DNA of 64,000 nucleotides from Pseudomonas sp. P8_229. Lineage in GTDB: Bacteria; Pseudomonadota; Gammaproteobacteria; Pseudomonadales; Pseudomonadaceae. This document shows positions 12,887 to 51,566 of this stretch, one piece after another. The notes beneath the pieces are model-generated. The model was not told the DNA's origin, made no database searches, and worked only from the letters and a program-made list of their open reading frames with translations. Where the stretch lies: contig NZ_CP125378.1 in NCBI RefSeq assembly GCF_034008635.1, positions 276,501-340,500 on the forward strand, given 5' to 3'. Both the position numbers and the translations under genes were made by a program. Position 1 is the first letter of the stretch. Each line of letters opens with the position of its first letter.

Positions 12887-12887
12887 A

Positions 12888-26343: not shown

Positions 26344-26344
26344 T

Positions 26345-32377: not shown

Positions 32378-32782
32378 TTAACCATAAATATCCAAGCTCA
32401 GATCAATACCCAACGCACCTAATCGCTCTAAGAGATTATACCTTATAACCTCCCCCGAATTCCCCGAGACATACAAACCAACAAAAAACTCAGCTTTCCC
32501 TCCTGACTCAGCTAGCTGTCGAAAACTTACTGATTTTTCTTCAAGCATACTAACTTGCTCAGAAATAAACTCACTTAGACTGCCAACACGCTTTTGACAT
32601 AGCAAGTAAGAACAAGCATTAGTCTCATAGGAACCTGATAGTTCTCGCCCACTAGGTGCTATTCTTTTTTCGCCTGAGACATGCTTCCACTTTGGAACCA
32701 TCCCAAGCTGAGTACTCGCCGAATCTGGATCAAACCTAGCTCCAGAGAGCCGAAGCGAAACAGTGAAGGAGTAAGGATTCAT
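32378..32782 (-). CDS. DUF4279 protein, probable RHS immunity protein
   Basis: 134 residues. The N-terminal strand pattern FTVSLRLSGARFDPDSASTQLGMVPKWKH and the following GEKRI...GSYETN segment match the DUF4279 family. It starts nine bases after the RHS C-terminal gene, with GGAGG well placed upstream. DUF4279 proteins commonly sit directly downstream of polymorphic toxin genes and are thought to be immunity proteins; that role is inferred here from position. It is cytosolic (no signal peptide), so it would protect against a toxin acting in the cytoplasm. Confidence 0.8.
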   Translation of the reverse strand: MNPYSFTVSLRLSGARFDPDSASTQLGMVPKWKHVSGEKRIAPSGRELSGSYETNACSYLLCQKRVGSLSEFISEQVSMLEEKSVSFRQLAESGGKAEFFVGLYVSGNSGEVIRYNLLERLGALGIDLSLDIYG

Positions 32783-32791
32783 CGCAGCCTC

Positions 32792-35500
32792 CTAAGGTAG
32801 ATAGTCTGTAATTGGGCCATTATTTACTGCATTACCATCCGAATCGCCAGTTATAACATCGCCATTAGGTGCAACACCTGTCCAGTCCTGAGGGCCCGCA
32901 AATACTCCATCCTTCACTCCGTGAAGGTCATCTTTATCAAGTCCTGGATATTTATCAATCGGAATAGTTCCAGGAGGGCAGCCTTTGGGTTTCGAGCCCT
33001 GAATAGGCTTTGCTAACATCGGCGGAGATAGCTGCTGAAGAATTATCTCTACCGCACCAACGCCCAGCACTGCGCCCCCAACGCCTACCCCCCCTCCCCC
33101 AGGGCCGTAAACAAGAGTGCTGCCAGTCGAGTTTAACCCATACGTATCTATATAGCGAAGCGGATTTGCTGCAGCATAAACATATGTATTGATACCACCT
33201 CTCAGCCCAATAAGATCACTCTCAATGTACCGACCAATACTTTGATCATAATCTCTAAAATAATTGTAGTTTAGCTGCGCTTGCTGATCATAAAACTGCC
33301 CAGGGAAACGCAGCGGAATGTGAGTCTGAACTCCATTCCCATCAACATCTTCATTCGGGAGCGCATTGCCATATGCATCACTGTTCCAGCTCCAAACAAC
33401 ACCTTGATCCGTACTGGCCAGGCGCGGAGTATTCAAGTGATCCGGATGCAGATAAATCAACTGGCCGCCATTATGAGAGCCATTCGCATAGGTGAGTTCT
33501 ACCTGCGCCAGTGGCATGCCATGCAGCCATATCCAATAGCGTGTTAAGGTTCTTTGCCCGGTCGAATTATAATTTGCCTGACCAATAAGATTTCCATCAC
33601 GACCATACAGATAGACGCTGCCATTCAGCAGGGCGCCGCTTACAGGGTCATAATTTAATTGAATGCTTCGCTGCCCCTGTGCATTATAACCGTAAGTGGC
33701 AACCTTTTGGTTGCCCGCTTGATAAACTGCATTCATTCGCCCAGATGCATCATAGGAATAATTCAGACCGTTGATGTGCTGCTGAATATTGCCAGTTGCA
33801 TCGTAGACAAGTTGAGAGCCATTAACTGTCGCCAAGCGGTTACTATCCAACGCAATAGTAGCCTCTTGTGTCTCACTGATGTTGCCAGTACCAAGGTTTA
33901 ATGTTGTGCGCAAGGTGCGATTACCAGAAGCATCCAGGACATAGTCCTTTTGCGTACTGACTGCCTGCTCACGTGTAAGGCGGTTCAAGGCATCATACTG
34001 GTATTGCACGCCTTCCCAGAGGCTGCTTTGTTGGCTAGTAATGTTGCCTACCGCATCGTAGCCATACTGATGCTGCCAAGTGCCGACGTTCTGCGTAGTG
34101 AGCTGATAATCTTGATCATACGTTCGGTTCAACGCAAAACCGTTGCCCCATGTCAATTGTTTAACCGGGCCGAACGGGACATAGCTGATGTTGCTAGCTA
34201 TTGGATAGGCATCTCCTAAAAACACTGCTGTGATAGCATTTATTTGGCCAGAACTATCACGCGCATAATTTAAAACTATGTCATCAGGATAGTTATAACT
34301 TACCAGCCGCCCTGCACTATCGTAACCATAGCTTTGACTAGTACTTACATCGAGCCCATCCAACTTCAGAACACTATCCTGAGCAATAAGCAACCCACGA
34401 CTATCATACTTATATGACACAGTACCGCTTGCATCTTGAACACCTGTAAGACGCCCGATGCCCTTATTATCCGTAGCGCTTGCATCATAGGTGTACAGTA
34501 CATCCAATTCTGGACTTGATGGATAGCGCTGCGCCGTCAGACGATTGAGGGCATCGTACTGATAGGTTGTGATCAAACCCCGAGCATCGGTTTTTTGTGT
34601 GACATTGCCACCATCATCGTAAACGTAGGTCGAAGTGCCGCTATCAGGGCTTTTCACCTGTAGGACACGACCATAACTGTCATACACATATTGTGTCGTG
34701 ACACCGCGAGGATCCACAAACTGGGTGATATTATTACCAGCGTTATAGGTTAGCGCACTGACACCACTCAAGGGATCCACCACTTGAGTTACTCGACCCA
34801 AGGCATCAAATGCCTGCGTAGTGGCATTACTCCGCGCGTCCGTCTGCTTTATACGTTGGTTGTTCAGATCGTAAGCGTAGCGCGTCGTTTGCCCACTTGC
34901 CCCAACCAGGGTAAGCAACCGCCCCAATTCGTCATATGTACGCTGCTGTAGACGAGTTAGGCCGCCACTCGCGTCCTTTACCTGCACAACCGTGCGGTTA
35001 CCCATTGCATCCAGGGTATAGGTTCGAGTTTCACCGAGAGCATTTGCAACGCTGATCAGGCGTCGTGCGTCATCATAGGAGTAAGCAAGAAAACTGCCGT
35101 CCGGTAACGTGGTACGCGTGAGGTCACCTACGGCATTGTAGCTGTACTGAGTGGTGGATCCAGCCGTGCTACTGGATGCCAACCAGCCCTGTGGGGTATA
35201 GCCTAATATCGTAACCACCCCATTGGGATCAGTCACCGACTGCGCATGCCCCTGATTATCAAAATTGGCCAATGTCACAACCTGGCCCAGCGCATTGGTG
35301 ATTGTGGTTAGATTGCCCTGGGGATCGTATGCATAGCTTGTAACATCCGATACATCCGTACGCGGCCCATCGATGCTTGCAACCTGACCAAGGCTTGTAT
35401 ACGTATAATTAATAGTATTATCAGCTGACGCAGACTGAACCATGACAAAACTTGCTAGCATCGAGATTAGAAGACTAAGCCGAAGCGCAGGACTCGACAT
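32792..35500 (-). CDS. Exported RHS-repeat protein, C-terminal half with toxin-like tail
   Basis: 902 residues. An N-terminal Sec signal peptide (LRLSLLISMLASFVMVQSASA) is followed by about 30 YD/RHS repeats and the RHS core (YFRDYDQSIGRYIESDLIGLRGG ... NPLRYIDTYGL, ending near 789). A 113-residue tail follows: a glycine-rich hydrophobic segment, then a short domain with LDKDDLHGVKDGV, GPQDWTGVAPNGDV and NNGPITDYLP. In RHS toxins the shell of repeats encloses the tail, which is cut off after the core and acts as toxin. The tail family is not certain; polymorphic toxin type 33 is a low-confidence guess. The gene begins 25 bp after the N-terminal-half gene. Confidence 0.88.
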   Translation of the reverse strand: MSSPALRLSLLISMLASFVMVQSASADNTINYTYTSLGQVASIDGPRTDVSDVTSYAYDPQGNLTTITNALGQVVTLANFDNQGHAQSVTDPNGVVTILGYTPQGWLASSSTAGSTTQYSYNAVGDLTRTTLPDGSFLAYSYDDARRLISVANALGETRTYTLDAMGNRTVVQVKDASGGLTRLQQRTYDELGRLLTLVGASGQTTRYAYDLNNQRIKQTDARSNATTQAFDALGRVTQVVDPLSGVSALTYNAGNNITQFVDPRGVTTQYVYDSYGRVLQVKSPDSGTSTYVYDDGGNVTQKTDARGLITTYQYDALNRLTAQRYPSSPELDVLYTYDASATDNKGIGRLTGVQDASGTVSYKYDSRGLLIAQDSVLKLDGLDVSTSQSYGYDSAGRLVSYNYPDDIVLNYARDSSGQINAITAVFLGDAYPIASNISYVPFGPVKQLTWGNGFALNRTYDQDYQLTTQNVGTWQHQYGYDAVGNITSQQSSLWEGVQYQYDALNRLTREQAVSTQKDYVLDASGNRTLRTTLNLGTGNISETQEATIALDSNRLATVNGSQLVYDATGNIQQHINGLNYSYDASGRMNAVYQAGNQKVATYGYNAQGQRSIQLNYDPVSGALLNGSVYLYGRDGNLIGQANYNSTGQRTLTRYWIWLHGMPLAQVELTYANGSHNGGQLIYLHPDHLNTPRLASTDQGVVWSWNSDAYGNALPNEDVDGNGVQTHIPLRFPGQFYDQQAQLNYNYFRDYDQSIGRYIESDLIGLRGGINTYVYAAANPLRYIDTYGLNSTGSTLVYGPGGGGVGVGGAVLGVGAVEIILQQLSPPMLAKPIQGSKPKGCPPGTIPIDKYPGLDKDDLHGVKDGVFAGPQDWTGVAPNGDVITGDSDGNAVNNGPITDYLP

Positions 35501-35525
35501 GACAATACCCTCATCAATATTTAAT

Positions 35526-36959
35526 TTAGTTTCCTTTAACTATCCGACTTAGAGCCCGACCCTTATCATCATAAGTATAAATAGCAGTATGCTCCGATTC
35601 AGTAATTTTTGTGGGCAAAGGGAGAGATGGATCCCATTCGGTTTTAACCATTCTTGTCAAAGAGGTGCCACTCGCCTCTTCACGGCTCACTTCAAGTCCT
35701 CGATCATTATAGGTGTATGAAGTAACAACCCCCAACGCATCCGTCTTAGTCAATATCTGACCTTCAGGACTATAGGTATAGCTAGAGTTGCTAGCCGGAC
35801 AGTTTGGTGAGGGTTCTCCATCAACTGATGACACACGCCTCACTCCATCGTACGATACCGCTTGATATTTTACTTTTTTTCCAAGCTCATTAGTCACCAC
35901 CGATGAGCCATCATTGTTATATACGATAGAAACCGCACCAATTCCTGCTGTATCACTGAAAACAGCTCGATCCTGGTCATCGTAATCCCAAGTAGCATAA
36001 CGAATCCCCCTTTCGTCAATCACGCCGGTCAGCAGTCTTGGCTTTCCTGGTTTCTCATATAAATAAGTTTTATTGAGCACGCTTGTACCGCGAGTCTTTG
36101 TCACGCCTGTAAAAAATGCTTTAGTGTCAGTCTGATACGTAAAAGTCACACCCGGAAACACAGCGGATTTCAAAGCGACGTATCCATTTGTATTGTCAGT
36201 CGCCAACGTTGCCGAGTCACCCAAGGAGCTTGTGATAGTTACAGTGCTATACCAAGAAGAGTAGCTAAGCGATACCTCATTATAGGGCTTAGAGACTTTT
36301 GTAAGCTGCCCAAGGCTATTAAAGTAGCTCGACTCATTTCCGATGCTGACAATTTTCCACCCGCTACCAGTCGCGGTTAAGCGACCCGCACCTTTTGGCC
36401 CAACCCACGAGCCTCCTATTAAGTTAAAAGAAATCTTCTCTCCATCATCAGAGATCAAATCTATACGCGTGCTTTTTATATAAAGATTTCGTGAGTAACT
36501 GTACGTCCACGACCCGACAACACTATTGTAGAATCTCCTAAAAACTAGCCCTCGCCCCCCCTCATAATCATTTTCAACAAAGTATTCATTGCCATTCAAA
36601 GGGTTAATCGGATCTGTAACGAACACATTCTCAACACCACATAAAGAGCTTGCCCCTCCCGCCTTAGTTAGGTCGTCAGGCACCACTCCAGCGTACTGAT
36701 CAATCGTTCTGGAATAAAAGGTGCCATACCACGGCGTATAATATCCATAAGAATATGCGCCAGTCGTGCTATAAGGATTTACGCCAAGTACACACTGCTC
36801 ACCAGCGCCAAAAAGTATCACGAATGATTTTTGATAACCTAGACAATCGCTATATGCCTCTGCGTTAGTTGTTGCCCAACTCGACGAACACGCCAACCCG
36901 AAAGAAATCAGCATCACTGCTGTTATTATCTTGCATCTATTAATAATGTTATTTTTCAC
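35526..36959 (-). CDS. Exported RHS-family protein, N-terminal half (DUF6531-like)
   Basis: 477 residues from GTG 36959, chosen because GGGAGG lies seven bases upstream and the product then opens with a good Sec signal peptide (KIITAVMLISFGLACSSSWA). A cysteine-containing N-domain is followed by NPLNGNEYFVENDYEGGRGLVFRRFYNS, the DUF6531-type RHS entry motif, then YD-like repeats ending at YTYDDKGRALSRIVKGN. It stops exactly where a one-piece RHS protein would continue into the repeats that open the next gene. It has no RHS core and no toxin tail, so it probably assembles with the downstream protein into one shell. Confidence 0.85.
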   Translation of the reverse strand: MKNNIINRCKIITAVMLISFGLACSSSWATTNAEAYSDCLGYQKSFVILFGAGEQCVLGVNPYSTTGAYSYGYYTPWYGTFYSRTIDQYAGVVPDDLTKAGGASSLCGVENVFVTDPINPLNGNEYFVENDYEGGRGLVFRRFYNSVVGSWTYSYSRNLYIKSTRIDLISDDGEKISFNLIGGSWVGPKGAGRLTATGSGWKIVSIGNESSYFNSLGQLTKVSKPYNEVSLSYSSWYSTVTITSSLGDSATLATDNTNGYVALKSAVFPGVTFTYQTDTKAFFTGVTKTRGTSVLNKTYLYEKPGKPRLLTGVIDERGIRYATWDYDDQDRAVFSDTAGIGAVSIVYNNDGSSVVTNELGKKVKYQAVSYDGVRRVSSVDGEPSPNCPASNSSYTYSPEGQILTKTDALGVVTSYTYNDRGLEVSREEASGTSLTRMVKTEWDPSLPLPTKITESEHTAIYTYDDKGRALSRIVKGN

Positions 36960-37297
36960 TGAACAGCCTCCCTGCGACACCTTGAACCAGGAATGACAAT
37001 ATCTCCCAACTTTTCTGCCTCAACAAAACGGCTTCAACATTTCGTACTTAGCCTAGCACTGCAAAATCAGACATAGACTCACAAATAAAATCTATAGGAC
37101 TGCAGCCCCTTCCAAAAAAACACTGGAAGCGTCATATTGTTCACCCTCAAACCAACCACCCCAATCACTTCAACAAATCAACAGCAAAACCTATCGCAAA
37201 AAAACACCCTATCGACAACATAGACACAGCATCTGACGACTGCACGAAATAATATGTAATGCCACCTCCAAAAAAATACAAAGCCAGCCCATGAGAA
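36960..37297. other. AT-rich spacer between RHS N-half paralogues
   Basis: About 340 bp of AT-rich sequence, with no open frame of note on either strand. It probably holds the promoter of the downstream RHS pair. It may also be where a C-terminal-half gene following the upstream paralogue was lost. Confidence 0.45.
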
Positions 37298-38866
37298 TTA
37301 ATTACTAGTCACCTGAACAGACAGCGGCCTACCCTGAGTATCATAATTTAATATTGTCTTTCTTGTCGGCTCGACAATTTTCCTCTTCAAAGGCAATACC
37401 GGATCCCACTCAGTGCTAATCGTTCTTTCCTGTGCAGTGCCCGCCCCTTCAACGCGAACGATCTCCTGCCCCCGGTCATTATATGAATAGCTTGTTAGGT
37501 GACCTTCCGCGTCGGTCTTGGTTGCTACTAACCCGCGAGAGTCGTATGTGTATGATGAGTTACTATAAGGGCAATTTGGCGAGGGTTGCCCAACAATTGA
37601 AACAACCCTCTTTACACCTTGCATTAAGCTGAATTGATAAACGGTCGACTTGCCGAGCTCATTAACAACAGTAACCGACCCATCATCATTATAAACAATA
37701 TTTGTTCGTCCCACCCCACCAGCACGCTCGCTAGAAACAGCCCGCCCAATATCATCATATGACCAGCTCGAACTTCGCACTCCTCTCTGATCGACTAGAC
37801 CAACCAAAAGCTTCTTATCAGTTCCAGGCTTATAAAGATAGCTTCTTCTTTCGAGAGGCTCAGCAGCCTGCCTCTGATAATCGACAGAAGCTAACTCACC
37901 TTGATCATTGTAGTTATATTTAATTTTCAGCCCTGGCGCGTCTACCGACAATAATTGAGCTACACCATACTCCGTCAAAGTAAGTACCCTACCAAAGCTA
38001 TCGGTCACATTAACCGTGGTGCCTGACCTTTCAATGCTTACACTGCGCCCGAACGCATCAACTTTACCTATAAGTCGCGCCCAGTCGCTAAATTTCAGAA
38101 CCTCGTTTTCAGGAGATGTGTAGATCCACCCCCCATCAGGTGTATTTTGCAAAGTTCCAAGCTCTGTAGACTCGGGCGTAATAACAGACCCCGCGCGTGA
38201 AAACTTTATCTGCCTCCCGTCACCTAGGGTGATCAGCACCATCTCCGGAGTTAAAAACATACTTTGAGAATAGGAATGCCTCCAAACTCCATCTTTACTA
38301 TTATAATATCGCACAACCTCCAGGGGAGAGTTGCTAGACGCCGGATAATCTTTTTCAACCTGGAACTTATTACCCGTTGCAAAATTTACAGGATTACCTA
38401 CAAAAGTATTAGACTCACATCCTTGAAATGGAGGAATACCCAACTGCTTTCTTGGCATTTCTCCAGACGTTGACTCACAACGACCATTATTTGGATTAAA
38501 CTCATTGCCGGGGTCACACTGAGTTCCATAGCGCGCAATCACTACACCTTGGGAGGTATAAATTTCAGGATTATAGGGGCTTCGAGCCTTGAACTCACAC
38601 TGCGCTATGATTGGATTAATGTAAAGATAATCAAGCTTTGTAAAATGCAAAGTCTCCTTGTATAAAAGATCTTGAGACCAAGGCCACGCCCCTGGCGCGT
38701 ATTCAACTTCGACTGCTTCTTTGCAGGCTGACATTATATCTGGCTGCGGGGTGATTGTTGAACGAAAACCAATCCACATATTTTCAGCACTACAAGGCAT
38801 TCCATATGCTAAAAAAAGCAGTGTAGCTCCGATAGCTCCAAAGCTTTTCGAATCGACACCTCGCAT
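37298..38866 (-). CDS. Exported RHS-family protein, N-terminal half paralogue (orphan)
   Basis: 522 residues. Signal peptide GAIGATLLFLAYGMPCSA, a distinct cysteine-bearing N-domain (about 30-160), then FVGNPVNFATGNKFQVEKDYPASSNSPLEVVRYYNS, the DUF6531 entry motif, and repeats. From about residue 350 it aligns with the neighbouring N-half protein (both have NELGK and SPNCP-SNSSYTY) and ends at the homologous position (ILNYDTQGRPLSVQVTSN). AAGGAGG precedes the ATG. No C-terminal-half gene follows it directly, so it may share the single C-half protein or have lost its own. It is divergent from the T2SS operon across 319 bp. Confidence 0.83.
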   Translation of the reverse strand: MRGVDSKSFGAIGATLLFLAYGMPCSAENMWIGFRSTITPQPDIMSACKEAVEVEYAPGAWPWSQDLLYKETLHFTKLDYLYINPIIAQCEFKARSPYNPEIYTSQGVVIARYGTQCDPGNEFNPNNGRCESTSGEMPRKQLGIPPFQGCESNTFVGNPVNFATGNKFQVEKDYPASSNSPLEVVRYYNSKDGVWRHSYSQSMFLTPEMVLITLGDGRQIKFSRAGSVITPESTELGTLQNTPDGGWIYTSPENEVLKFSDWARLIGKVDAFGRSVSIERSGTTVNVTDSFGRVLTLTEYGVAQLLSVDAPGLKIKYNYNDQGELASVDYQRQAAEPLERRSYLYKPGTDKKLLVGLVDQRGVRSSSWSYDDIGRAVSSERAGGVGRTNIVYNDDGSVTVVNELGKSTVYQFSLMQGVKRVVSIVGQPSPNCPYSNSSYTYDSRGLVATKTDAEGHLTSYSYNDRGQEIVRVEGAGTAQERTISTEWDPVLPLKRKIVEPTRKTILNYDTQGRPLSVQVTSN

Positions 38867-39185
38867 AGAGCCTCCTTGCCAGCCTGATTACAAGCGATAT
38901 CAACTGAATAAAAAGTTATAGCCACTCTTTACAGGTTCGCAATTTTTTTTATGAAAATGCGACAAAATCCGCAAGCGCGTGCTACAGATGCATAAGGAAT
39001 AATCTAGAAATTACACCATCTGATTAAGGGCTAGCTCTACTGGGCAGCAGGTAGATCAGATGTTAAAGCGCAGACCGTTTTGCATGCTAAGGATCTGAAT
39101 TTATGAAGATATTTGAGTTTCTATACGCCATTCCAATCAGAACCCGCACGCGTACAGCGAGCACCCATCACTCTCCCCAATTGGC
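38867..39185. promoter_or_regulatory. Divergent intergenic region between RHS genes and T2SS operon
   Basis: 319 bp, AT-rich next to the RHS start (a run of eight Ts at about 38943-38950). It must hold promoters for both directions. A 30-codon frame with a good AAGGA site runs from 39103 into the gspE start. No clear palindrome is seen. Sharing this region could allow joint control of the RHS cargo and the secretion machine. Confidence 0.55.
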
Positions 39186-39195
39186 GTGGCCTTGA
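39103..39195 (+). CDS. Possible 30-aa leader peptide overlapping gspE start
   Basis: ATG 39103 has AAGGA nine bases upstream, a better initiation signal than gspE itself. The frame reads MKIFEFLYAIPIRTRTRTAS and stops at TGA 39193-39195, overlapping the gspE GTG at 39186. It could couple translation into gspE or be a chance frame. Confidence 0.3.
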   Translation: MKIFEFLYAIPIRTRTRTASTHHSPQLAWP

Positions 39196-40895
39196 TCTTG
39201 ACGGGAACCCTTGATCCAGCTGAAGCCGTCATTCAATGGCTTTTAGAATCAGGCCGCCTTAAGCAGTCGGATGTGGACAGAGCACAGCAGTTGCAGCTGA
39301 GCCACCACACCCAGGAGCTGACCGAGATACTGCTGTCTCTAGGAGTCGTATCAGAGCAGGATCTAGCATTGGCCTGGTCAACGATATTCAATGTACCTTT
39401 ATTATATTCAGCAGAGATATTAGAAAGCAGTATTAATTTACCAGAATTATCCTTACGTTTTTTAAAGCATCATTGCATGGTGCCTTTATCGAAAGAACAC
39501 GGTGAGCTGCACGTACTCATTGCAAATCCAACATTGCACCGAGCTCTGAAGGCACTCACGTATGCCTGCGATTGCAGTATACGAATATCGATCGGATTAA
39601 GAAGTGAAATTGAAGATTTGATCGAGCGGTTTTATGGTCGTGGGCGAACAGCAATGGGAACCTTAATTGAAAATTTAGACATAAACATCGAGGAACAATC
39701 AGCGGATATCGAACACCTGAAAGATCTCGCTTCAGAGGCACCTGTTATCCGACTAGTGAATTTACTGTTGCAGCGAGCGGTTGAACAGAGGGCGTCTGAC
39801 ATCCACGTTGAACCCTTTGAAAGCGAGTTGAAAGTCCGGTATCGGATTGATGGGGTACTACACCTTGCCGAAGCACCGCCCGTGAGTTCTTCTGCTGCTG
39901 TCATTTCTCGAATCAAGATCATGGCCAAGCTAGATATAGCCGAACGACGCCTCCCGCAGGATGGCCGCATCATGCTTCGAATTCAGGGAAAAGAGCTCGA
40001 CTTGCGAGTATCCACCGTTCCCACCAGCTTTGGCGAATCGGTAGTGATGCGCTTGTTGGATCGCCAGACCGTTTCTTTTGAGTTTCCTAGCCTAGGTTTC
40101 GACGGAGAACGACTTGATAAATTTTTAGAGGTACTTGACCGACCTCACGGAATTCTATTGGTAACCGGCCCTACAGGTTCGGGAAAAACCACGACCCTCT
40201 ACACTGCTCTATCGCGTCTTAATACGCCAGAAAGGAAGATTATTACAGTCGAAGACCCCGTTGAGTACCAGCTTGACGGTATCAATCAGATTCAGGTTAA
40301 ACCAGTAATAGGATTGGATTTTTCTGGAGTGCTGCGCTCAATCGTACGTCAGGATCCCGATGTCATCATGATCGGTGAAATGCGAGATCTGGAAACATGC
40401 AGGATTGCTATCCAATCATCCCTCACCGGACACATGGTGCTTTCGACGTTGCACACCAACAGTGCCGCAGCAAGCATCACCAGACTCTTGGATATGGGTG
40501 TGGAAAGCTACCTGATTGCGTCTACAGTGAACGCTATTCTGGCACAGCGACTCGTACGCAGACTTATACCAGATTGGCGAGAAGTGTTCGAGGCGACACC
40601 TGAGATCATTGCAGAGCATCAACTCGATAAGTACACAGACGCCAGGCCCATACGTCTCTATCGCCCTATGAAAAATGCGCCTGACAACGGGTACCGAGGA
40701 CGCAGCGCCCTAACCGAACTCCTGGTGATGAACGATGAGCTGCGCTCCTTGTTAATGCGCCACGCAGATGCAGCAACTCTTGAGGCCGCTGCTCGCACAT
40801 CAGGACTTCGTACACTTTATGAAGATGGATTGCGTCAAGCCTTAGCTGGAGTCACCAGCCTAGAGGAAGTACTTCGAGTCACACGCAGTGAGTGA
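39186..40895 (+). CDS. gspE: T2SS cytoplasmic ATPase GspE
   Basis: 569 residues. An N-terminal T2SSE_N domain (QWLLESGRLKQSDVDRA, about 15-140) is followed by the ATPase core: Walker A GPTGSGKTT (328-336), the Asp box around ITVEDPVE, Walker B IVRQDPDVIMIGEMRD and the His box SSLTGHMVLSTLHTN. It powers pseudopilus assembly at the inner membrane. The tetracysteine zinc motif usual before GYRGR in GspE is missing: RLIPDW...APDNGYRGRSALTELL has no cysteine. The start is a GTG without a strong ribosome-binding site and may be coupled to a leader frame. First gene of the eleven-gene gsp operon. Confidence 0.93.
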   Translation: MALILTGTLDPAEAVIQWLLESGRLKQSDVDRAQQLQLSHHTQELTEILLSLGVVSEQDLALAWSTIFNVPLLYSAEILESSINLPELSLRFLKHHCMVPLSKEHGELHVLIANPTLHRALKALTYACDCSIRISIGLRSEIEDLIERFYGRGRTAMGTLIENLDINIEEQSADIEHLKDLASEAPVIRLVNLLLQRAVEQRASDIHVEPFESELKVRYRIDGVLHLAEAPPVSSSAAVISRIKIMAKLDIAERRLPQDGRIMLRIQGKELDLRVSTVPTSFGESVVMRLLDRQTVSFEFPSLGFDGERLDKFLEVLDRPHGILLVTGPTGSGKTTTLYTALSRLNTPERKIITVEDPVEYQLDGINQIQVKPVIGLDFSGVLRSIVRQDPDVIMIGEMRDLETCRIAIQSSLTGHMVLSTLHTNSAAASITRLLDMGVESYLIASTVNAILAQRLVRRLIPDWREVFEATPEIIAEHQLDKYTDARPIRLYRPMKNAPDNGYRGRSALTELLVMNDELRSLLMRHADAATLEAAARTSGLRTLYEDGLRQALAGVTSLEEVLRVTRSE

Positions 40896-40897
40896 GT

Positions 40898-42109: not shown

Positions 42110-42122
42110 ATGGAAGCTGACG

Positions 42123-42545
42123 ATGAAACGAATGCAATCGTTCTCCCCAATAAGCCGTGGTTTCACCCTTTTAGAAATGCTTGCGGTAATCGTATTGATC
42201 GGCGTGATTGCCACTATTGTCGTCCGCCAAATTGGGGGAAACGTAGATAAGGGGAAATACGGTGCTGGCAAGGCACAACTTGCTAGCCTTTCAATGAAAA
42301 TTGAAAGCTATGGATTGGATATCGGCTCTCCACCTAAAGACCTCTCCGACCTGACTACCAAGCCGACCACAGCAAGGAGCTGGAATGGGCCTTATGCCAA
42401 GCCTAGCGAACTAAAGGATCCCTTTGGAAATGATTTTGGTTACCAGTACCCCGGGGAGCACGGCCCTTTCGATCTAATATTTTATGGTAAGGATGGGCGA
42501 CTTGGAGGCGAGGGATACAACGCCGATGTCGGCAACTGGGAATGA
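42123..42545 (+). CDS. gspG: T2SS major pseudopilin GspG
   Basis: 140 residues. The prepilin peptidase site is RGFTLLEMLAVIVLIGVIATIVV: cleavage after Gly13, Phe becoming the N-terminus, with the conserved Glu at mature position 5. The C-terminal half carries the GspG calcium-site-like pattern (WNGPYAKPSELKDPFGNDFGYQYPG, then DLIFYGKDGRLGGEGYNADVGNW). It builds the pseudopilus. No prepilin peptidase gene is in the window, so the chromosomal PilD would be needed. Overlaps gspH as ATGA. Confidence 0.95.
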   Translation: MKRMQSFSPISRGFTLLEMLAVIVLIGVIATIVVRQIGGNVDKGKYGAGKAQLASLSMKIESYGLDIGSPPKDLSDLTTKPTTARSWNGPYAKPSELKDPFGNDFGYQYPGEHGPFDLIFYGKDGRLGGEGYNADVGNWE

Positions 42546-43006
42546 GAGTTGTGAGCATGAGTCATAAAACCCAGCGGGGCTTTACACTGCTGGAGACTCT
42601 AGTCGTAATCTTGATCATTTCAGTAGGACTCACCCTCCTCCTCTATGGTTTTTCCCAAGGACTTGAAAAGCATCGCGACAGACGAGCCAAAACAGATTTA
42701 GTTTTCGCACTGCGTGAAGTCCGGAATCAAGCCATCGTTAGTAGCCAAACAAAAACTCTGCAATTCGATCTTTCGAGCAATGGTTATCAAATACCAGGAC
42801 TACCGGAACACGTCCTTCCCAAAGGAATGATCATGCGTGTAACTACCGCAGCAAAACTACTGCCTGATGGAGAGGCTATCGCCTTCTATCCGGATGGTAG
42901 TTCCAGCGGTGGGAATATTGTTTTAATAAAGGACAATCGCTCTTGGCGAGTGGACATCGCCTGGCTAACCGGTAGAGTATCGTGGACGGACGTTGAGCAA
43001 CCATGA
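42542..43006 (+). CDS. gspH: T2SS minor pseudopilin GspH
   Basis: 154 residues with prepilin motif QRGFTLLETLVVILIISVGLTLLLYGF and the GspH/FimT-type core (RAKTDLVFALREVRNQAIVSSQTKTLQFDL, AFYPDGSSSGGNIVL). The ATG at 42542 overlaps the gspG stop; an internal ATG at 42557 gives the more usual short leader before the prepilin site. It is part of the pseudopilus tip-connecting set. Overlaps gspI as ATGA. Confidence 0.9.
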   Translation: MRVVSMSHKTQRGFTLLETLVVILIISVGLTLLLYGFSQGLEKHRDRRAKTDLVFALREVRNQAIVSSQTKTLQFDLSSNGYQIPGLPEHVLPKGMIMRVTTAAKLLPDGEAIAFYPDGSSSGGNIVLIKDNRSWRVDIAWLTGRVSWTDVEQP

Positions 43007-43380
43007 CTGCGCTAAATAAACACACTCAATCCGGGTTCACGCTCCTGGAAATTCTGGCAGCAATAGTACTTTTGAGTATTGGCTCCGCGCTTTTCTTGAA
43101 CACGTTAAGCAACTCTACTAGAGCATTGGACAAGGATAGGCAGATTACCTATTTAGCGTTGTTTGCCAAGTCAATCCTCGAAAGACAGATAACTGAGCCT
43201 CTCAGAACAGGGCAATGGCACGGAAAAAATCAAGACATTCAATGGCAATTGACCTCAACTCTAATCCCAGGAACGCCTCCAACCGATATTTACCGACTGG
43301 AATTAATTGTCGAACGCGACACCCACAAACAAAAACTTGTCACTTTAAGAGCTCAAAGCAGTAGCGCGGTACAAAGATGA
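43003..43380 (+). CDS. gspI: T2SS minor pseudopilin GspI
   Basis: 125 residues with prepilin motif QSGFTLLEILAAIVLLSIGSALFLNTL, followed by the small GspI domain (ALDKDRQITYLALFAKSILERQI). It forms the pseudopilus tip complex with GspJ and GspK. Four-base overlaps on both sides show translational coupling through the pseudopilin block. Confidence 0.9.
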   Translation: MTALNKHTQSGFTLLEILAAIVLLSIGSALFLNTLSNSTRALDKDRQITYLALFAKSILERQITEPLRTGQWHGKNQDIQWQLTSTLIPGTPPTDIYRLELIVERDTHKQKLVTLRAQSSSAVQR

Positions 43381-44009
43381 TGAACTCAAAGGCCCGCGGC
43401 TTTACATTGCTTGAAGTAATGATCACCATGAGTTTAATGGGCTTATTAATGGTGCTAATCGCATCAACACTAACTCTTAGCAACCGCACACTTTCCATCA
43501 GTGAATATTACTCAACTCGTTTGAGTGAAATCAGATCTGCGCAAAGCTTCATTCGCAAGTCTCTACAACAAAGCTTACCTATCGTTTTTCTGCGCGACGG
43601 TAAGAATACTGACTGGATTTTCGATGGTGAACGACAACAGCTGCGCTTTGTCGCTCCGATGCCTCCACCGCTTCTGGGAGGTGTAAAGATACACTCAATT
43701 GAATTAGCTGATAACGATGAAGCTTCTTCAAACTTACAAGTTAGCTTCAGACAAACTCCAACCCAAGGGGTGAATGCGTGGGGAGAACCACAAATATTAC
43801 TTCAGAACGTTCAAAATCTTCGCATCAGCTACAGAGGCCTAGACAATAATCAACGTGTAACCAATTGGCTTGAGAACTGGCCGTGGCCCGAGCGCCTTCC
43901 TCAGTACATTAAAGTTGATCTGGATACTCAAGGCCCAATCAGTTGGCCTCAGCTCGTTGTTGCTATACGCCTTAGCCCAATGGCACCTATAGACCGGATC
44001 ACGCCATGA
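43377..44009 (+). CDS. gspJ: T2SS minor pseudopilin GspJ
   Basis: 210 residues with prepilin motif ARGFTLLEVMITMSLMGLLMVLIA and a longer beta-rich domain (RSAQSFIRKSLQQSLPIVFLRDGKN, ILLQNVQNLRISYRGLD, PQYIKVDLDTQGP) typical of GspJ. Tip component of the pseudopilus. Overlaps gspI and gspK by 4 bp. Confidence 0.9.
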   Translation: MMNSKARGFTLLEVMITMSLMGLLMVLIASTLTLSNRTLSISEYYSTRLSEIRSAQSFIRKSLQQSLPIVFLRDGKNTDWIFDGERQQLRFVAPMPPPLLGGVKIHSIELADNDEASSNLQVSFRQTPTQGVNAWGEPQILLQNVQNLRISYRGLDNNQRVTNWLENWPWPERLPQYIKVDLDTQGPISWPQLVVAIRLSPMAPIDRITP

Positions 44010-44716
44010 GAACCCAGCGTGGCGCAGCCTTGATAGTTGCTCTATGGGCATTAGCGCTATTGAGTTTGATAGTAGGAACAGCAGTACAAACAACCCGCCT
44101 GGAAAACCGGCAGAGCGCCTATGAATTGCATCACCTTGAAGCCCAACTCGCCGCCGAAGCCGGTTTCGCAATGGCTCTCAAAGACCTAAGCTCATCTAAA
44201 TCAGTAATGATTGCTGACGGTCGCCCCTACCCCTTTTTCTTTGAGGATACTCAGCTGACGCTAAGGGTCTACAGCGAGCGTGGCAAGCTCGATTTAAATT
44301 TTTGCAGCATAGAAAGCCTCACCCTCCTAGCCAGCTTCTTTGGTGCCTCCCCTAATCAGACTCAGCAAATGGCTCAGGAGCTATCCAAAAGACGGGCAAA
44401 TTTAAGCACCATTAAAGCGATAGAGGAGCTTCAGCAATTCCCCGAAATGGACTCACGACTCTATGTTCAAATGGAACCGTTCTTGACGCTATGGTCTGGG
44501 CTGGTTCAGCCTGACACATCGTTCGCGCTAGCCCCGGTTCGGGCTGCCCTTAAGCTGGAAATTCCTGTTTCGAGAGGTAATCCTGGTAGCGTTCTCAGTG
44601 CAAAGATCTACGCTATCCATACCACCGGTACGACAGCCGATCTGAATGTGACATTCCTTCTCAACTCACAAGGAGACAATGCGCAACTCTACCGTGTGTT
44701 GCGCTGGCAAGAATGA
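44006..44716 (+). CDS. gspK: T2SS minor pseudopilin GspK
   Basis: 236 residues, short for GspK (often about 300). The N-terminus RGAALIVALWALALLSLIVG is the GspK type, in which the pseudopilin Glu5 is replaced. The alpha domain is seen in RGKLDLNFCSIESLTLLASFFG and the ELSKRRANLSTIKAIEELQQF segment. It caps the pseudopilus. The missing length suggests a reduced insertion domain rather than truncation, since both ends fit. Overlaps gspJ and gspL by 4 bp. Confidence 0.88.
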   Translation: MRTQRGAALIVALWALALLSLIVGTAVQTTRLENRQSAYELHHLEAQLAAEAGFAMALKDLSSSKSVMIADGRPYPFFFEDTQLTLRVYSERGKLDLNFCSIESLTLLASFFGASPNQTQQMAQELSKRRANLSTIKAIEELQQFPEMDSRLYVQMEPFLTLWSGLVQPDTSFALAPVRAALKLEIPVSRGNPGSVLSAKIYAIHTTGTTADLNVTFLLNSQGDNAQLYRVLRWQE

Positions 44717-45822
44717 AGACATTCTTAAGGAGTTGGTCATCAACACTTCAGGTGCTGGAGAACCGCCTATGCTATCAATGGCGGCGATCAGTGCTACCTG
44801 CATTTTTGTTCTGGTGGCGTAAAGAACTAGTCGATTGTCTTCCCCAAAAGTGGAAAGAAAGGCTGGAAACCTCAGAGAAAGAAATACTCTTGTACTGGCA
44901 TACCGGCTCATTTTGGGATTCATTGAGCATCCAGCCCAAGCGGGATGCAATGCCTGATGGAGAGCACCAAAGTAGAAAAATCCTAGTCCTACCTTACGAG
45001 GAAATCCTTCTAGAACCAATTCAGCTACCTGCCGCCGCCCTAGCAGATGCCGAGACGGTTGTAGCGTTTGAGATGGACAAATACACTCCTTTTACGTCCA
45101 AGCAAGTCTACTTTGATCTAGCTTGGGATCAAATAGGCAGCAGCCGTTCCGGAAGCACAGGCCTTCTGCTGGTGGTTGTGCTTCGGAAACGACTCGATAG
45201 CATCCTCGATAAAGCCGCTGGAGAAGGGCTTAGTTTTGACGCAGTGGATGTCCTAGATGAGCAGCAGAAGCGTGTAAATATTAATTTATTGCCGTTTTCA
45301 CACCGCCCCGAAAAAAACAATCCGGCTCGATATATCAAACTCTCATTAGCTATCTCAGGTATTGCGCTTCTCGTTTCCGTGATGCTCCTTTGGGTCAGTA
45401 ATCGTCAGGACGCGCTTGAAGAGATGAGCATGCAGGTCAGAGCGTTACGAAACGCGACTCAGCAGACAAAAACGTTGCAAGAGCAGTTGAACACTGCATT
45501 AACAACGGGGCAATTCATTCAAAATCAGAAAGCTCAAGCCGTCTCTAAAGCTTCACTGCTACGCGAATTGACCATCTGCATACCGGCGAACACCTGGCTG
45601 GAGCAGCTTGAGGTCAGCCAGGCAGGAGAAGTTGATCTAAATGGGCAAAGCAGCCAAGCCAACGAGCTGATCGGGAAAATGAAATCCTGCACTAGCTTGG
45701 AGAACATTCGGTTTCAAGGCATTATTCAGCCAGATCGCAGTACAGGGCTAGACCGCTTTAATATAACCGCTCGTCTACGAACCAAGGACGATAGCCATGC
45801 CCCGCCCACTATCAGCCCGTGA
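44713..45822 (+). CDS. gspL: T2SS platform protein GspL (PilM/PilN-like)
   Basis: 369 residues. A cytoplasmic actin-like region contains ILVLPYEEILLEPIQLPAAALADAETVVAFEMDKYTPF, the segment typical of T2SS GspL and PilM relatives. One TM helix follows at about 210-228 (LAISGIALLVSVMLLWV), then a periplasmic coiled coil and a PilN-like ferredoxin fold (SLLRELTICIPANTWLEQLEVSQAGEVDLNG). It recruits GspE and pairs with GspM. The 3' end overlaps gspM by 26 bp. Confidence 0.9.
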   Translation: MKTFLRSWSSTLQVLENRLCYQWRRSVLPAFLFWWRKELVDCLPQKWKERLETSEKEILLYWHTGSFWDSLSIQPKRDAMPDGEHQSRKILVLPYEEILLEPIQLPAAALADAETVVAFEMDKYTPFTSKQVYFDLAWDQIGSSRSGSTGLLLVVVLRKRLDSILDKAAGEGLSFDAVDVLDEQQKRVNINLLPFSHRPEKNNPARYIKLSLAISGIALLVSVMLLWVSNRQDALEEMSMQVRALRNATQQTKTLQEQLNTALTTGQFIQNQKAQAVSKASLLRELTICIPANTWLEQLEVSQAGEVDLNGQSSQANELIGKMKSCTSLENIRFQGIIQPDRSTGLDRFNITARLRTKDDSHAPPTISP

Positions 45823-46399
45823 GCAACGAAGTACGGCAATAGCCCTCGCCGTACTTACACTGATTGGCGTTTACTTTCTCGGTATCCATTGGTGGTTTAC
45901 GGCCCCATTGATGGCGATCGCTGATGAAATGCATACTCTCCGTATTAGTCAGCAACAATATCAAGCTCTCCAGGCTCAACGGCCTGTCATTGATGCGCAG
46001 CTAGCAGAGGCTACAAGCGCCCCTCAAAATAACGAGTACCTACTTTCAGACTCCGATACTGGAGCTGCCACGGCCCAACTAATGCAGTTGGCCTCCTCAC
46101 GACTTCAAGCGGTCTCATCATCTGGGGGAGGCGGCTGCAGCATCACCAATAAAATGCCAGTTACAGCAAACGAAACTGGCCTGTATAAACAAGTCAAAGT
46201 CAGTATCAACCTCAACTGTAGCATTCAGCCTCTGGCAGCATTTGTCTACAACCTTGAAAACGAACGGGTATCGATTTTTATCGAAACGCTGAGTTTAAGA
46301 AGGTCTCCCTTGCAATCTCCCAAGCAGAGCTACAGACTGACAGCACAGATGCTTGTGAGCGCGTACACGCGCAATAATCCAAAAGCGAAAGCAGAATGA
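45797..46399 (+). CDS. gspM: T2SS platform protein GspM
   Basis: 200 residues: a short cytoplasmic N-terminus (MPRPLSAREQRS), one TM helix (TAIALAVLTLIGVYFLGIHW), a coiled-coil stretch (LRISQQQYQALQAQRPVIDAQ) and a periplasmic domain (LQAVSSSGGGG ... VKVSINLNCSIQPLAAFVYNLENE, then SLRRSP). The layout fits the XpsM-type GspM that partners GspL. Overlaps gspL by 26 bp and the next gene by 4 bp. Confidence 0.85.
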   Translation: MPRPLSAREQRSTAIALAVLTLIGVYFLGIHWWFTAPLMAIADEMHTLRISQQQYQALQAQRPVIDAQLAEATSAPQNNEYLLSDSDTGAATAQLMQLASSRLQAVSSSGGGGCSITNKMPVTANETGLYKQVKVSINLNCSIQPLAAFVYNLENERVSIFIETLSLRRSPLQSPKQSYRLTAQMLVSAYTRNNPKAKAE

Positions 46400-46899
46400 T
46401 CGTAAAACTAGCCCGCCATCTCCGGCTATCGCTACCACTCCTACTTGTACTAGCTGGTGCGGGCATCGCCATGTTAAACGGTTGGGGCGCCAACGTTGTC
46501 TGGTTTCCGCAAGCGGAACAACCACCAATAATAAAGATATCATCGCCACAAACTGAGGTTTCGCCTATTCCCCTGCAGGCATACAGTGAAATCTGGACTC
46601 AGTCATTGTTTAATCAAGACCGATCAGTTGACCCAGTGCTTCCGACTCTGAAATCTGAAACGAGCGCCCCACCTTTAACGGGCCTTCTCCTGACAGGCGT
46701 AGTGATTTCCCCCCCCTTGCACAGAGCATTTTTTAAGATGGCCGATGGAAAAGGCTTGGAGGTGAATGAAGGTGACGTCCTACCAAATGGCTGGACTGTG
46801 GAAAGCATCGAGCACGAAAGAGTTTTTCTTGGCTACAGCTCCACGAAACAAGAGATGATTCTCCCGGTACTAAAGATCCCTGCAGCTTCGCTTCGCTAG
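46396..46899 (+). CDS. T2SS GspC/XpsN-like connector protein
   Basis: 167 residues. One N-terminal TM helix (LSLPLLLVLAGAGIAML), a periplasmic linker and a homology-region-like domain with PPLTGLLLTGVVISPPLHRAFFKM and VNEGDVLPNGWTVESIEHERVFL. This is the layout of GspC or of XpsN in Xanthomonas, which links the inner-membrane platform to the secretin; no PDZ domain follows. Its place between gspM and gspD matches XpsN. It precedes the secretin start by 60 bp. Confidence 0.82.
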   Translation: MIVKLARHLRLSLPLLLVLAGAGIAMLNGWGANVVWFPQAEQPPIIKISSPQTEVSPIPLQAYSEIWTQSLFNQDRSVDPVLPTLKSETSAPPLTGLLLTGVVISPPLHRAFFKMADGKGLEVNEGDVLPNGWTVESIEHERVFLGYSSTKQEMILPVLKIPAASLR

Positions 46900-46959
46900 G
46901 TGCATTGCGGCCTTCAAGACACATTGACCGTTACCACGATTGCCAAAGGATTGCTTAAC

Positions 46960-49179
46960 GTGATTAAACGCTTCGCCTACCCCTGCATAACGAGTCTTTT
47001 TGTCCTTTCTGGATGCATGTCTCCACCAGTGGAGCCAAATAATAAAAGCATCATTGAAACTGGCTTAGCTGGAACAGGAGCGGATCGCCAGCCCCTTGCC
47101 TATTCCCCGAGCGCAACCAAAGATTCTGTGACAGCCCCCGTAACCCAGACCTCAAGCCACCAAATCATCCGTGGTTTTAGGGATATTTCTGCACCAAAAA
47201 CCACACCTTCAAGACGATCGACCGCATCCGATCCAGGTCAAGCGGGGACGACATTCAATTTCGCGAGCATCCCCATTCAGGCAGTCGTGAACACTATCCT
47301 AGGTGACGTGCTTAAAGAGAATTACAGTATTGGCCAAGGGGTTACCGGGGACGTTACCTTCTCGACATCCAAGCCAGTGGATAAGCAACAGGCATTTTCC
47401 ATCCTTGAAACTCTCCTCTCATGGACGAACAACGCAATTATTCGTCAGGGTGATCGATATCTAGTCCTACCAGCTAAGGACGCCGTAGCAGGCCGATTGA
47501 CCCCTAGCTCAACAATTCCTGAGCCAGGAGAGGGGTTAACTGCTCGTTTTTTTGTCTTGGACTACATGTCACCGATTGAGATGCAAAAATTGCTAAAGCC
47601 TTTCGCTCGCGATAGCGCTTTCCTCATGGTCGACTCCGCACACAACGTCTTAGTGATGGCCGGCACATCGGATGAACTCAATAATTACCAGCAAACCATC
47701 AACACATTCGACGTCAACTGGCTCAAAGGAATGTCCATCGGAGTCTTTGGACTGAAACGCGCCAACGTTAGCCAGTTGCTGCCCGAGTTGGAGCGCTTAT
47801 TCGGCTCTCAAAGCGGAACTCCGTTATCAGGCATGCTTAAATTTTTGCCAATTGAGCGGACTAACGCCATTGTCGCTATTTCTCCCCAACCTGAATATCT
47901 GAACGACGTTGGGCGCTGGATCGACACTATTGATCAAGGCGGCGGCGATGAGCCGCAAATGTATGTCTATGATGTTAGAAATATGAAAGCTACTGATCTA
48001 GCCAAGTATTTACGCCAAATATATAGCGATGAAGCAATAGCAGACGAGCCGCCTGCTCAAGTTGCACCTGGCCTACGTACCGTCACGCTTTCGAGTAATG
48101 GGATGAGCAGCACCCCAAATATAGGCTCAGGATCCCCTGCCAATAATGGGATGATCAGTGGAAGTAATACAAACGGCATGAGCAGCAATCAACCTTATGC
48201 AGAAGATGACTACACAGAGGCACAGCCAGATAATTCAGGGCATAGATTGCAAAGTGGTAAGGCAAACACTGTAAAAATCACCGCCCAAAAAAGCAGCAAC
48301 CAGTTGCTCTTCCGAGGACGCCCCAGCCAGTGGGCCGAGATTCAATCTGCCATTCAACGCCTGGACAACCTCCCAATGCAAGTTCAGATTGAAACCCGGA
48401 TTCTTGAGGTGAGTTTGACCGGCTCATTAAATCTTGGTGTGCAGTGGTATTTGGGGCGACTAGCCGGAAACTCAACAACTAAAGGCATTGAAAACGTCTC
48501 CGGTAGTCAGGGAGCGATTGGCCGAGGCGGTGCAGCGCTGGGAAATGACTCTTTGTTCTATTCGTTTGTCAGCAAAAATTTGCAGGTAGCGCTGCACGCA
48601 TTAGAGACAGATGGAAATTCAAAGGTACTTTCCGCCCCATCCTTGGTTGTCATGAATAACCAACAAGCCCAGATTCAAGTTGGCAACAACATTCCGATCA
48701 ATCAGACCACCATCAATACCGGCAGCTCGAACCTGACGACAAGCACAGTGCAGTATGTCCAAACCGGCGTTATACTTGACGTTGTGCCACGTATAAATCC
48801 AGGCGGATTGGTATACTTGGAAATTCAGCAGCAAGTTAGCGACGCGAGCACAACAAAAGACATCAACGGCAATCCGACAATTTCTGCACGCTCAGTTTCG
48901 ACTCAAGTAGCCGTTCAAAGTGGGCAAACCATAATGCTTGGCGGTTTGATCCAGCAAAATGAGGCGCAATCCGACGATAGCGTCCCGTTTCTCGGAAAAA
49001 TACCTGGACTTCACTGGTTGTTCGGAAGTACAGAACGCGCTCGTGGAAGATCGGAGTTGATTGTTCTAATTACTCCGAGAGTGATCACAGGCAGCAGCGA
49101 GGCCAGAGAGATAACCGATGAGTACCGCCAAAAAATGCAACTCATGGTACCCAATCCCCCCCCGAATACGAGTCTCTAA
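46960..49179 (+). CDS. gspD: T2SS secretin GspD, lipoprotein type
   Basis: 739 residues from GTG 46960 (AAAGGA ten bases upstream). The N-terminus KRFAYPCITSLFVLSGCMSPP is a lipoprotein signal peptide with lipobox LSGC, so the secretin should be acylated and self-piloting, as in HxcQ and XpsD. N-domains follow (FNFASIPIQAVVNTILGDVLKENY, LKRANVSQLLPELERLFGS), interrupted by a low-complexity Ser/Asn/Gly region at about 380-435. The C-terminal secretin gate is clear: VQIETRILEVSLTGSLNLGVQW, APSLVVMNNQQAQIQVGNNIP, GGLIQQNE and VPFLGKIPGLHWLFGS. Last gene of the operon. Confidence 0.94.
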   Translation: MIKRFAYPCITSLFVLSGCMSPPVEPNNKSIIETGLAGTGADRQPLAYSPSATKDSVTAPVTQTSSHQIIRGFRDISAPKTTPSRRSTASDPGQAGTTFNFASIPIQAVVNTILGDVLKENYSIGQGVTGDVTFSTSKPVDKQQAFSILETLLSWTNNAIIRQGDRYLVLPAKDAVAGRLTPSSTIPEPGEGLTARFFVLDYMSPIEMQKLLKPFARDSAFLMVDSAHNVLVMAGTSDELNNYQQTINTFDVNWLKGMSIGVFGLKRANVSQLLPELERLFGSQSGTPLSGMLKFLPIERTNAIVAISPQPEYLNDVGRWIDTIDQGGGDEPQMYVYDVRNMKATDLAKYLRQIYSDEAIADEPPAQVAPGLRTVTLSSNGMSSTPNIGSGSPANNGMISGSNTNGMSSNQPYAEDDYTEAQPDNSGHRLQSGKANTVKITAQKSSNQLLFRGRPSQWAEIQSAIQRLDNLPMQVQIETRILEVSLTGSLNLGVQWYLGRLAGNSTTKGIENVSGSQGAIGRGGAALGNDSLFYSFVSKNLQVALHALETDGNSKVLSAPSLVVMNNQQAQIQVGNNIPINQTTINTGSSNLTTSTVQYVQTGVILDVVPRINPGGLVYLEIQQQVSDASTTKDINGNPTISARSVSTQVAVQSGQTIMLGGLIQQNEAQSDDSVPFLGKIPGLHWLFGSTERARGRSELIVLITPRVITGSSEAREITDEYRQKMQLMVPNPPPNTSL

Positions 49180-51221: not shown

Positions 51222-51566
51222 ACCAGGCCACTTCAGTCTGGGTAACCTTTGCGACCAAGAGACACGTCAGGGCAAATCTCCCTCTCACATGATGCCGTGG
51301 TGATCTCTATCTCGTTTGATGAGATCGCCTGCAGGCAAAGTCCTTCACTGTGACCGTCGTTGATTGAGTCCATGTTTTCGCTGATGTAGTTTCAGATGCC
51401 CCACCCCGAGCGACGGCGTCAGCTAACGTCGACAGCTTGATTGTTCATTAGCCAGTCAAGCACCAGCAGATCCTGAATAGAATGCCCAAAGTAGTCATAG
51501 CAATTCGCCTTCACATTGAGTATAAGTGCCCATTTTTATGCTTGATGCAACGCAAAGGAGATGTGC
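51222..51566. other. Intergenic region before the phosphoesterase-STAND gene
   Basis: About 345 bp with no supported frame on either strand. The 3' end, with AAGGAG at 51555-51560, supplies the ribosome-binding site of the next gene. No palindrome was noted. Confidence 0.5.

Follow-up and report, generated by a model that had tools for sequence, protein, structure and literature searches.

Many RHS proteins are effectors of the type VI secretion system (T6SS), and the T6SS Rhs effectors are single chains that travel by this route. In Tc toxins two chains, TcB and TcC (4o9x, 4igl), form one RHS cocoon around the toxin. The exit of RHS toxins other than T6SS cargo from Gram-negative cells is largely an open question. 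RHS toxins with signal peptides were classed under export by Sec and the type II secretion system (T2SS) already in 2012 (Zhang et al., PMC3482391), and Bcn-A, an RHS bacteriocin of Xanthomonas perforans, loses its activity in an xpsD mutant of the X. euvesicatoria expressing it (PMC7259588). Here we report on a 64,000-nucleotide stretch of the genome of Pseudomonas sp. P8_229 (the window; positions 276501-340500 on one 6.37-Mb contig), in which split RHS genes lie head-to-head with a T2SS (gsp) operon. A preliminary description had seen here three RHS proteins, all with clear Sec signal peptides, a divergent gap of 319 bp and a complete eleven-gene gsp operon, and had proposed a dedicated Sec-T2SS delivery system.

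Our analysis points, at somewhat better than an even chance, to an RHS polymorphic toxin, most likely directed at bacteria, which is exported by Sec as two chains and leaves the cell through a T2SS. That the RHS side is a polymorphic toxin with immunity is nearly certain from the anatomy of the encoded proteins. The layout agrees with the preliminary description: three RHS open reading frames (ORFs) on the minus strand are open at 32792-35500, 35526-36980 and 37298-38866, eleven closely packed ORFs on the plus strand are open at 39186-49179, and the gap lies between the two sets. The features of the RHS side are as follows.

32378..32782, minus strand: probable immunity protein of 134 aa with a Pfam match to DUF4279 (29.8 bits vs cut-off 25)
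32792..35500, minus strand: RHS tail, 902 aa, with signal peptide, RHS repeats, Rhs-associated core and C-terminal toxin cassette (RHS_repeat 209.5 bits; Rhs_assc_core 69.2 bits; signal-peptide-like start; shell fold, later part)
32795..33043, minus strand: putative toxin cassette inside the tail, about residues 820-902
35526..36959, minus strand: RHS head B, about 477 aa, with signal peptide, variable domain, DUF6531 and first YD repeats (DUF6531 27.8 bits and RHS_repeat 33.8 bits; ORF codon 8 gives a signal-peptide-like start)
37298..38866, minus strand: RHS head A, 522 aa, with signal peptide, variable domain, DUF6531 and first YD repeats (DUF6531 45.8 bits)
38867..39185, no strand: divergent intergenic region common to both gene sets, 319 bases, without a long ORF

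RHS family membership held for all three RHS ORFs, and their reading as three complete toxins did not: they are two related heads of 522 and 484 aa and a single tail of 902 aa. A Pfam search of 30 proteins from the window showed RHS_repeat in all three RHS proteins and DUF6531 only in the 484- and 522-aa ones; the Rhs-associated core of the tail covers residues 708-789 (TIGR03696, 69.2 bits vs a cut-off of 32.5). Models of head and tail fit consecutive parts of solved RHS shells, the head the first and the tail the later part, and it is quite likely from these fits that one head and the tail make up one RHS shell. The shell fold is shared with the T6SS effectors RhsA (7q97), Tre23 (7pq5), Tse15 (8uxt) and RhsP (8h8b), and a cocoon of two chains, as proposed here, would be in common with TcB/TcC. 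The site of the split differs, however: the match of the TcC-type chain 4igl_B is confined to tail residues 221-767, so that the window tail starts about 190 residues earlier than a TcC-type chain, and neither an SpvB nor a TcdB-middle domain was found in the heads by Pfam search at E 0.001. The 484-aa ORF of head B (to 36980) probably has its real start at GTG 36959, with GGAGG upstream and a clean signal peptide downstream. Between heads A and B no remnant of a tail was seen by eye in three frames. Head A is 74% identical to the lone head of a related genome, G098, where the head directly precedes a tail that is 82% identical to the window tail.

Signal peptides were scored with a home-made measure instead of SignalP, trying the start codons within the first 70 codons against a threshold pre-set in the script. 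Signal-peptide-like starts were found in 26/27 heads and 25/27 tails (window rows included) vs 15/540 internal positions given the same treatment. The clear signal peptides of the preliminary description stood for the 902-aa tail and the 484-aa head; the 522-aa head scored 2.56, just below the threshold of 2.8, and its signal peptide is plausible by eye (..GMPCSA/EN). Signal peptides by themselves indicate just Sec export, and the two halves could remain periplasmic or surface-bound, or exit by lysis or in vesicles, without any T2SS. Most related loci lack a nearby T2SS, and for the Yersinia entomophaga Tc toxin lysis is the reported means of release (PMC10847048). We nevertheless consider export by Sec alone unlikely, given the xpsD dependence of Bcn-A described in the passages of PMC7259588 and the recurrent T2SS neighbourhood set out below.

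The split is not peculiar to this strain. When genome contigs were scanned with the head alignment (as one peptide pattern), 113 stretches were confirmed, the best 80 of which were kept and correspond to 78 distinct loci (the named loci; 33 carry Pseudomonas titles by our own count). Thirty-one of them are split at this same site, 31 have head and tail in one ORF and 16 are cut or otherwise arranged. A 4-base overlap between head and tail was seen in 11/31 split loci, and a tail is accompanied by one head in 22, by two heads in 8 and by three in one, degenerate, locus. In a tree of tails (29 split and 18 fused rows) the two forms are strongly clustered, with 5 changes compared to 14.6 in shuffles; fused proteins of Candidatus Nitrotoga and P. 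huaxiensis are nested in the split Pseudomonas group. A search of the genus found the head at E <=1e-50 in 29/398 Pseudomonas genomes, with 41 head places listed, two of them in ORFs of more than 1000 aa. Three candidates per genome were scored in this genus search and four in the search of a class sample, so loci may be missed, and contig ends truncate some of the class and named loci. Both the division into head and tail and the signal-peptide-like starts are seen again in related loci and are thus more than a chance feature of this one. A broken RHS gene whose pieces keep open frames by chance is hence an extremely improbable explanation: some relatives are indeed degenerate (L103, L130, L217), yet the same split site, with independent signal-peptide-like starts on both halves, is found in many species, in 11/31 cases with the overlap mentioned above.

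Outside the named set, arrays of heads with a single tail were seen at locus L214 (7336-13685), with four heads, and at L201 (6013-14412), with five and more distant. A tblastn search with the head matched 857 plasmid records. Conjugative and mobilizable plasmids of Pseudomonas likewise carry split RHS pairs, and IncC plasmids of Escherichia and Citrobacter (L152, L154) have a relative of this RHS protein, which in L154 is one chain of 1381 aa without an obvious signal peptide where its annotation starts. No viral contigs carrying this RHS type were found.

RHS proteins in Pseudomonas secretomes are often taken for T6SS cargo, as many RHS proteins are. A YD-repeat protein from the secretome of P. 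syringae pv. aptata, for example, was proposed as a T6SS effector, its gene lying outside the T6SS clusters (PMC10294431). For the present locus this reading is very improbable: in contrast to the T6SS Rhs effectors, heads and tail have no PAAR or VgrG domain in Pfam searches, which found only DUF6531 and RHS_repeat; they have signal-peptide-like starts instead; and no T6SS family was found among the 30 window proteins. The locus is also a warning that RHS proteins in secretomes should not automatically be taken for T6SS effectors, and the P. syringae pv. aptata protein may deserve a second look.

The toxin is predicted to reside in the C-terminal cassette of the tail. Thirteen tails align up to about residue 790 and diverge beyond, and the cassette (78 aa) is 83% identical to that of the P. 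capsici tail, with only 55% identity for the whole tails; the cassette is therefore exchangeable. In a search of 5.8 billion proteins, with candidates restricted to 0.55-1.75 times the tail length, 15 proteins had the cassette region (window's own included); each has an RHS domain, and several also carry DUF6531 in the same chain. A relative of the DUF4279 protein (23-43% identical) immediately follows the cassette in 4/4 other fetched loci that have it, and since such pairing is the usual mark of toxin-immunity pairs, we read cassette and DUF4279 protein as one and the latter, from its sequence and position, as a probable immunity protein. At the place in P. cichorii that corresponds to the P. 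capsici locus the cassette is a different one and DUF4279 is still present. Ahead of the cassette the tail aspartates D762 and D785 are invariant or nearly so. In position as well as spacing (23 residues, against 22) they appear to resemble the aspartate pair ahead of the toxin in Tse15 that is altered in a cleavage mutant (8uxt). By this analogy, D762 and D785 probably cleave the cassette free.

The complete eleven-gene gsp operon of the preliminary description was borne out by Pfam and NCBIfam matches from E to D.

39186..40895, plus strand: gspE, ATPase (TIGR02533 646.8 bits vs cut-off 630.25; T2SSE)
40892..42109, plus strand: gspF (T2SSF 193 bits; TIGR02120 419.7 vs cut-off 424, just missed; XpsF 375)
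42123..42545, plus strand: gspG, major pseudopilin (TIGR01710 100.7 bits vs cut-off 88.85; T2SSG)
42542..43006, plus strand: gspH (GspH 27.4 bits)
43003..43380, plus strand: gspI (N_methyl; operon position)
43377..44009, plus strand: gspJ (N_methyl; T2SSJ below its cut-off)
44006..44716, plus strand: gspK (PilX_N; operon position; relatives)
44713..45822, plus strand: gspL (PilN domain; relatives)
45797..46399, plus strand: gspM (T2SSM_b 60.6 bits)
46396..46899, plus strand: gspN/gspC (XpsN-like), 167 aa (PilP-family below cut-off; XpsN weak, 20.7 vs 400; operon position)
46900..49179, plus strand: gspD, secretin (TIGR02517 448.6 bits vs cut-off 351.35; Secretin and GspD N0 domain in Pfam)

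As judged from the encoded proteins, the divergent operon is an Xps-type T2SS. It shares with this type an XpsF-like protein and the order E-F-G-H-I-J-K-L-M-N-D, which is also the xps gene order in Xanthomonas; it differs in lying in an island beside RHS genes. Secretin, ATPase, F protein, pseudopilins G-K, L, M and C/N are present, the N/C match being weak. The prepilin peptidase is absent from the operon, and one is encoded elsewhere in the genome. Read by eye, the start of GspD is lipobox-like (..LSGC). A promoter scan of the gap at 38867..39185 gave no excess over shuffled sequences.

Is the neighbourhood of RHS genes and T2SS meaningful? Five of the 78 named loci have a multi-gene T2SS in their fetched flanks, compared to 0.54 expected from gspD density. 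In P. huaxiensis a fused RHS gene is followed, from 0.26 kb on, by eleven gsp genes (complete in L232); in P. cichorii and P. capsici the T2SS lies at 3.5-3.6 kb from the RHS genes; in Taklimakanibacter lacteus RHS sits between gspE-F and gspD; and in a Rhodocyclaceae MAG the order is D-E-F, then RHS. As P. cichorii and P. capsici are near kin, the five cases amount to about four lineages, and the enrichment has P 0.00025 for five cases and 0.0024 for four. In the genus sample a T2SS is found near 4/32 Pseudomonas head loci besides the window (G570, G810, G822, G827), with 0.22 expected (P ~8e-5). Two fused forms are among these 32 loci (G570, G794), G570 being also one of the four with a T2SS nearby. 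The RHS pair of G822 is flanked by a gspE piece on one side and a gspE-F-G row on the other; in G827 a stretch of 6.4 kb, with a GH3-type glycosidase gene in it, separates RHS genes and operon. The Poisson expectations assume even density, an 11-kb operon and an average genome size of 3.1 Mb for the class and 5.95 Mb for the genus; the 282 and 184 gspD matches taken as density, like the co-occurrence counts below, were tallied by eye from tables. Because the named and genus samples overlap, with G570 and G810 probably corresponding to P. huaxiensis L102 and P. cichorii L106, the two enrichment tests are not independent.

Several observations weigh against the favoured T2SS-exported toxin. No gsp gene was found in the fetched flanks of 28/32 Pseudomonas head loci, and a multi-gene T2SS in 0/57 loci of the class sample (0.39 expected); when genus and class sample are pooled, the enrichment falls to P 0.0035. 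The RHS-linked GspE proteins are scattered on the GspE tree and form no single clade (5 changes; 147/500 shuffles as low; long-branch warnings for L133, L134, L137, L205, L222, L232 and L239), and a dedicated T2SS subtype was rejected on this ground. In G822 gspD was not found within the 42 kb fetched. Strong gspD matches are missing in 5/48 head-bearing genomes of the class sample. The cassette is without any Pfam match, the prolines commonly found after the two aspartates are absent from the tail, and the signal-peptide score is home-made, with the 522-aa head below its threshold.

At genome level, a gspD match at E 1e-70 was found in 43/48 head-bearing genomes (window's included) vs 202/321 others in the class sample (P 9e-5), and in Pseudomonas in 14/14 vs 106/135 (P 0.04). 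Co-occurrence of RHS and gsp genes at this level is not specific: all of 20 control genomes, which have other DUF6531 proteins but no head match, have a gspD match as well, and together with the five head-bearing genomes just mentioned this makes co-occurrence no evidence for the link.

The RHS cassette and the T2SS may also be chance neighbours that came separately into a defence-and-competition island, the RHS toxin using any T2SS, perhaps the strain's second one (GspD 677.6 bits at 5667556). We regard this as a serious possibility, not far short of even. No T2SS adjoins the RHS genes in their closest relative, G098, and no split RHS lies next to the T2SS in its nearest kin among 194 relatives, G044 and G037 (GspD 74 and 73%). 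The island carries integrase and CBASS genes and has a GC content of 0.46-0.52 vs 0.614 at the window start, and the 28/32 and 57/57 loci without a nearby T2SS fit separate arrival as well. In contrast, T2SS proximity exceeds density in Pseudomonas and in the named loci, and in several lineages RHS and gsp genes are very near each other: they are 0.26 kb apart in P. huaxiensis, and RHS lies inside a gsp cluster in Taklimakanibacter and G822. The association arose several times yet is inconstant, which fits a cargo that is helped by a nearby T2SS but able to use another. The "dedicated" Sec-T2SS system of the preliminary description is accordingly supported only in part: conserved signal-peptide-like starts, T2SS proximity above density and the precedent of Bcn-A, as described in the passages of PMC7259588, favour Sec and T2SS as the route; the missing GspE clade, the second T2SS, the many loci without a T2SS and the nearest relatives without the other half leave "dedicated" itself unsupported. 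We hold export of the RHS toxin by a T2SS to be somewhat more probable than not; that it leaves mainly through the adjacent one is possible, at a little under even.

Seven further candidates were not counted as T2SS, nor was L134, whose E matches best as PilB and whose D reaches 153 bits vs a cut-off of 351: L141 and L177 have an FHA-ATPase and a small secretin (L141 also two T2SSF proteins) and are Tad-like, L178 has a gspF-like piece at the locus edge, L205 is PilB-like, and L111, L113 and L121 have weak ATPase-type matches. The RHS proteins near the Tad-like genes (L141 1514-14701, L177 5552-17136) are long, and that of L141 has a TadE domain at its start and a Tle1-like lipase domain at its end. 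In L222 (6963-17437) a truncated gspE and, on the other side, an intact gspE-F-G row enclose a split RHS pair, and an orphan tail end follows the tail. A 921-aa GH3-type glycosidase with a signal-peptide-like start is divergent from gspE in L235 (16840-19602), with ORFs of 921-935 aa at the equivalent place in L060-L063; it is perhaps another T2SS cargo.

Following the reading as a T2SS-exported two-chain toxin, head and tail would each pass through Sec and meet in the periplasm, where the two chains would close into one cocoon around the tail's C-terminal toxin cassette, and D762 and D785 would probably cut the cassette free within the shell. The folded cocoon would then exit via a T2SS, either the adjacent Xps-type system or the strain's other one. 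The DUF4279 protein, which has no signal peptide, would remain cytoplasmic and protect the producer and its kin. The variable N-terminal domain of the head is a likely contact site for the secretion system or the target cell, and the second head may be an alternative or superseded front half. We tentatively suggest, at somewhat less than an even chance, a separate class of polymorphic toxins in which two Sec-exported chains close around the toxin outside the cytoplasm, with swappable or arrayed heads (one to five) per tail, and are exported whole by a T2SS. If shells are indeed exported in halves, a cocoon can close outside the cytoplasm, its front half would be swappable just as the toxin cassette is, and head-tail pairing and head swapping become testable. 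With T2SS genes recurring next to such toxins, the T2SS would also acquire a part in the killing of rivals.

Within the passages seen of the cited papers, two precedents come close. The T2SS/Sec RHS class of Zhang et al. has signal peptide, RHS repeats, C-terminal toxin and adjacent immunity gene in common with the present locus; neither a conserved head-tail split nor gsp linkage is described in those passages of PMC3482391. Bcn-A is likewise of the RHS family and has an immunity gene; its bacteriocin activity is found in the supernatant and depends on a T2SS secretin. It differs in being a single chain of 1,398 aa instead of two and in requiring ORF2 and ORF4, and the passages of PMC7259588 describe no adjacent T2SS. 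Sec/T2SS export of RHS proteins hence has precedent, and what is newer is the conservation of the split, together with the multiple heads; in the open-licence papers searched, no account of a split, twice-exported head-tail RHS pair or of head arrays was found. Two small ORFs lie directly ahead of the head in L106 (8758-9806) and L107 (8611-9803), the second of which, in the L106 copy, shows an RR motif close to its start and gave no match in Pfam. By analogy with the two genes needed by Bcn-A they are possible accessory genes.

The remaining part of the window fits an island. A row of three large ORFs at 10035-14933 begins with an integrase gene (10035-11288), followed by a weaker one: the first has a phage-integrase domain above the cut-off, the second below it and the third none. 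The row is probably the recombinase module of the island. A type II CBASS operon that looks complete, with genes for patatin-like phospholipase, cyclase, E1-E2 and JAB, lies at 24143-28521, and further defence candidates are a metallophosphoesterase-STAND protein at 51561-54383 and a PDC-S06-like protein at 62880-63998.

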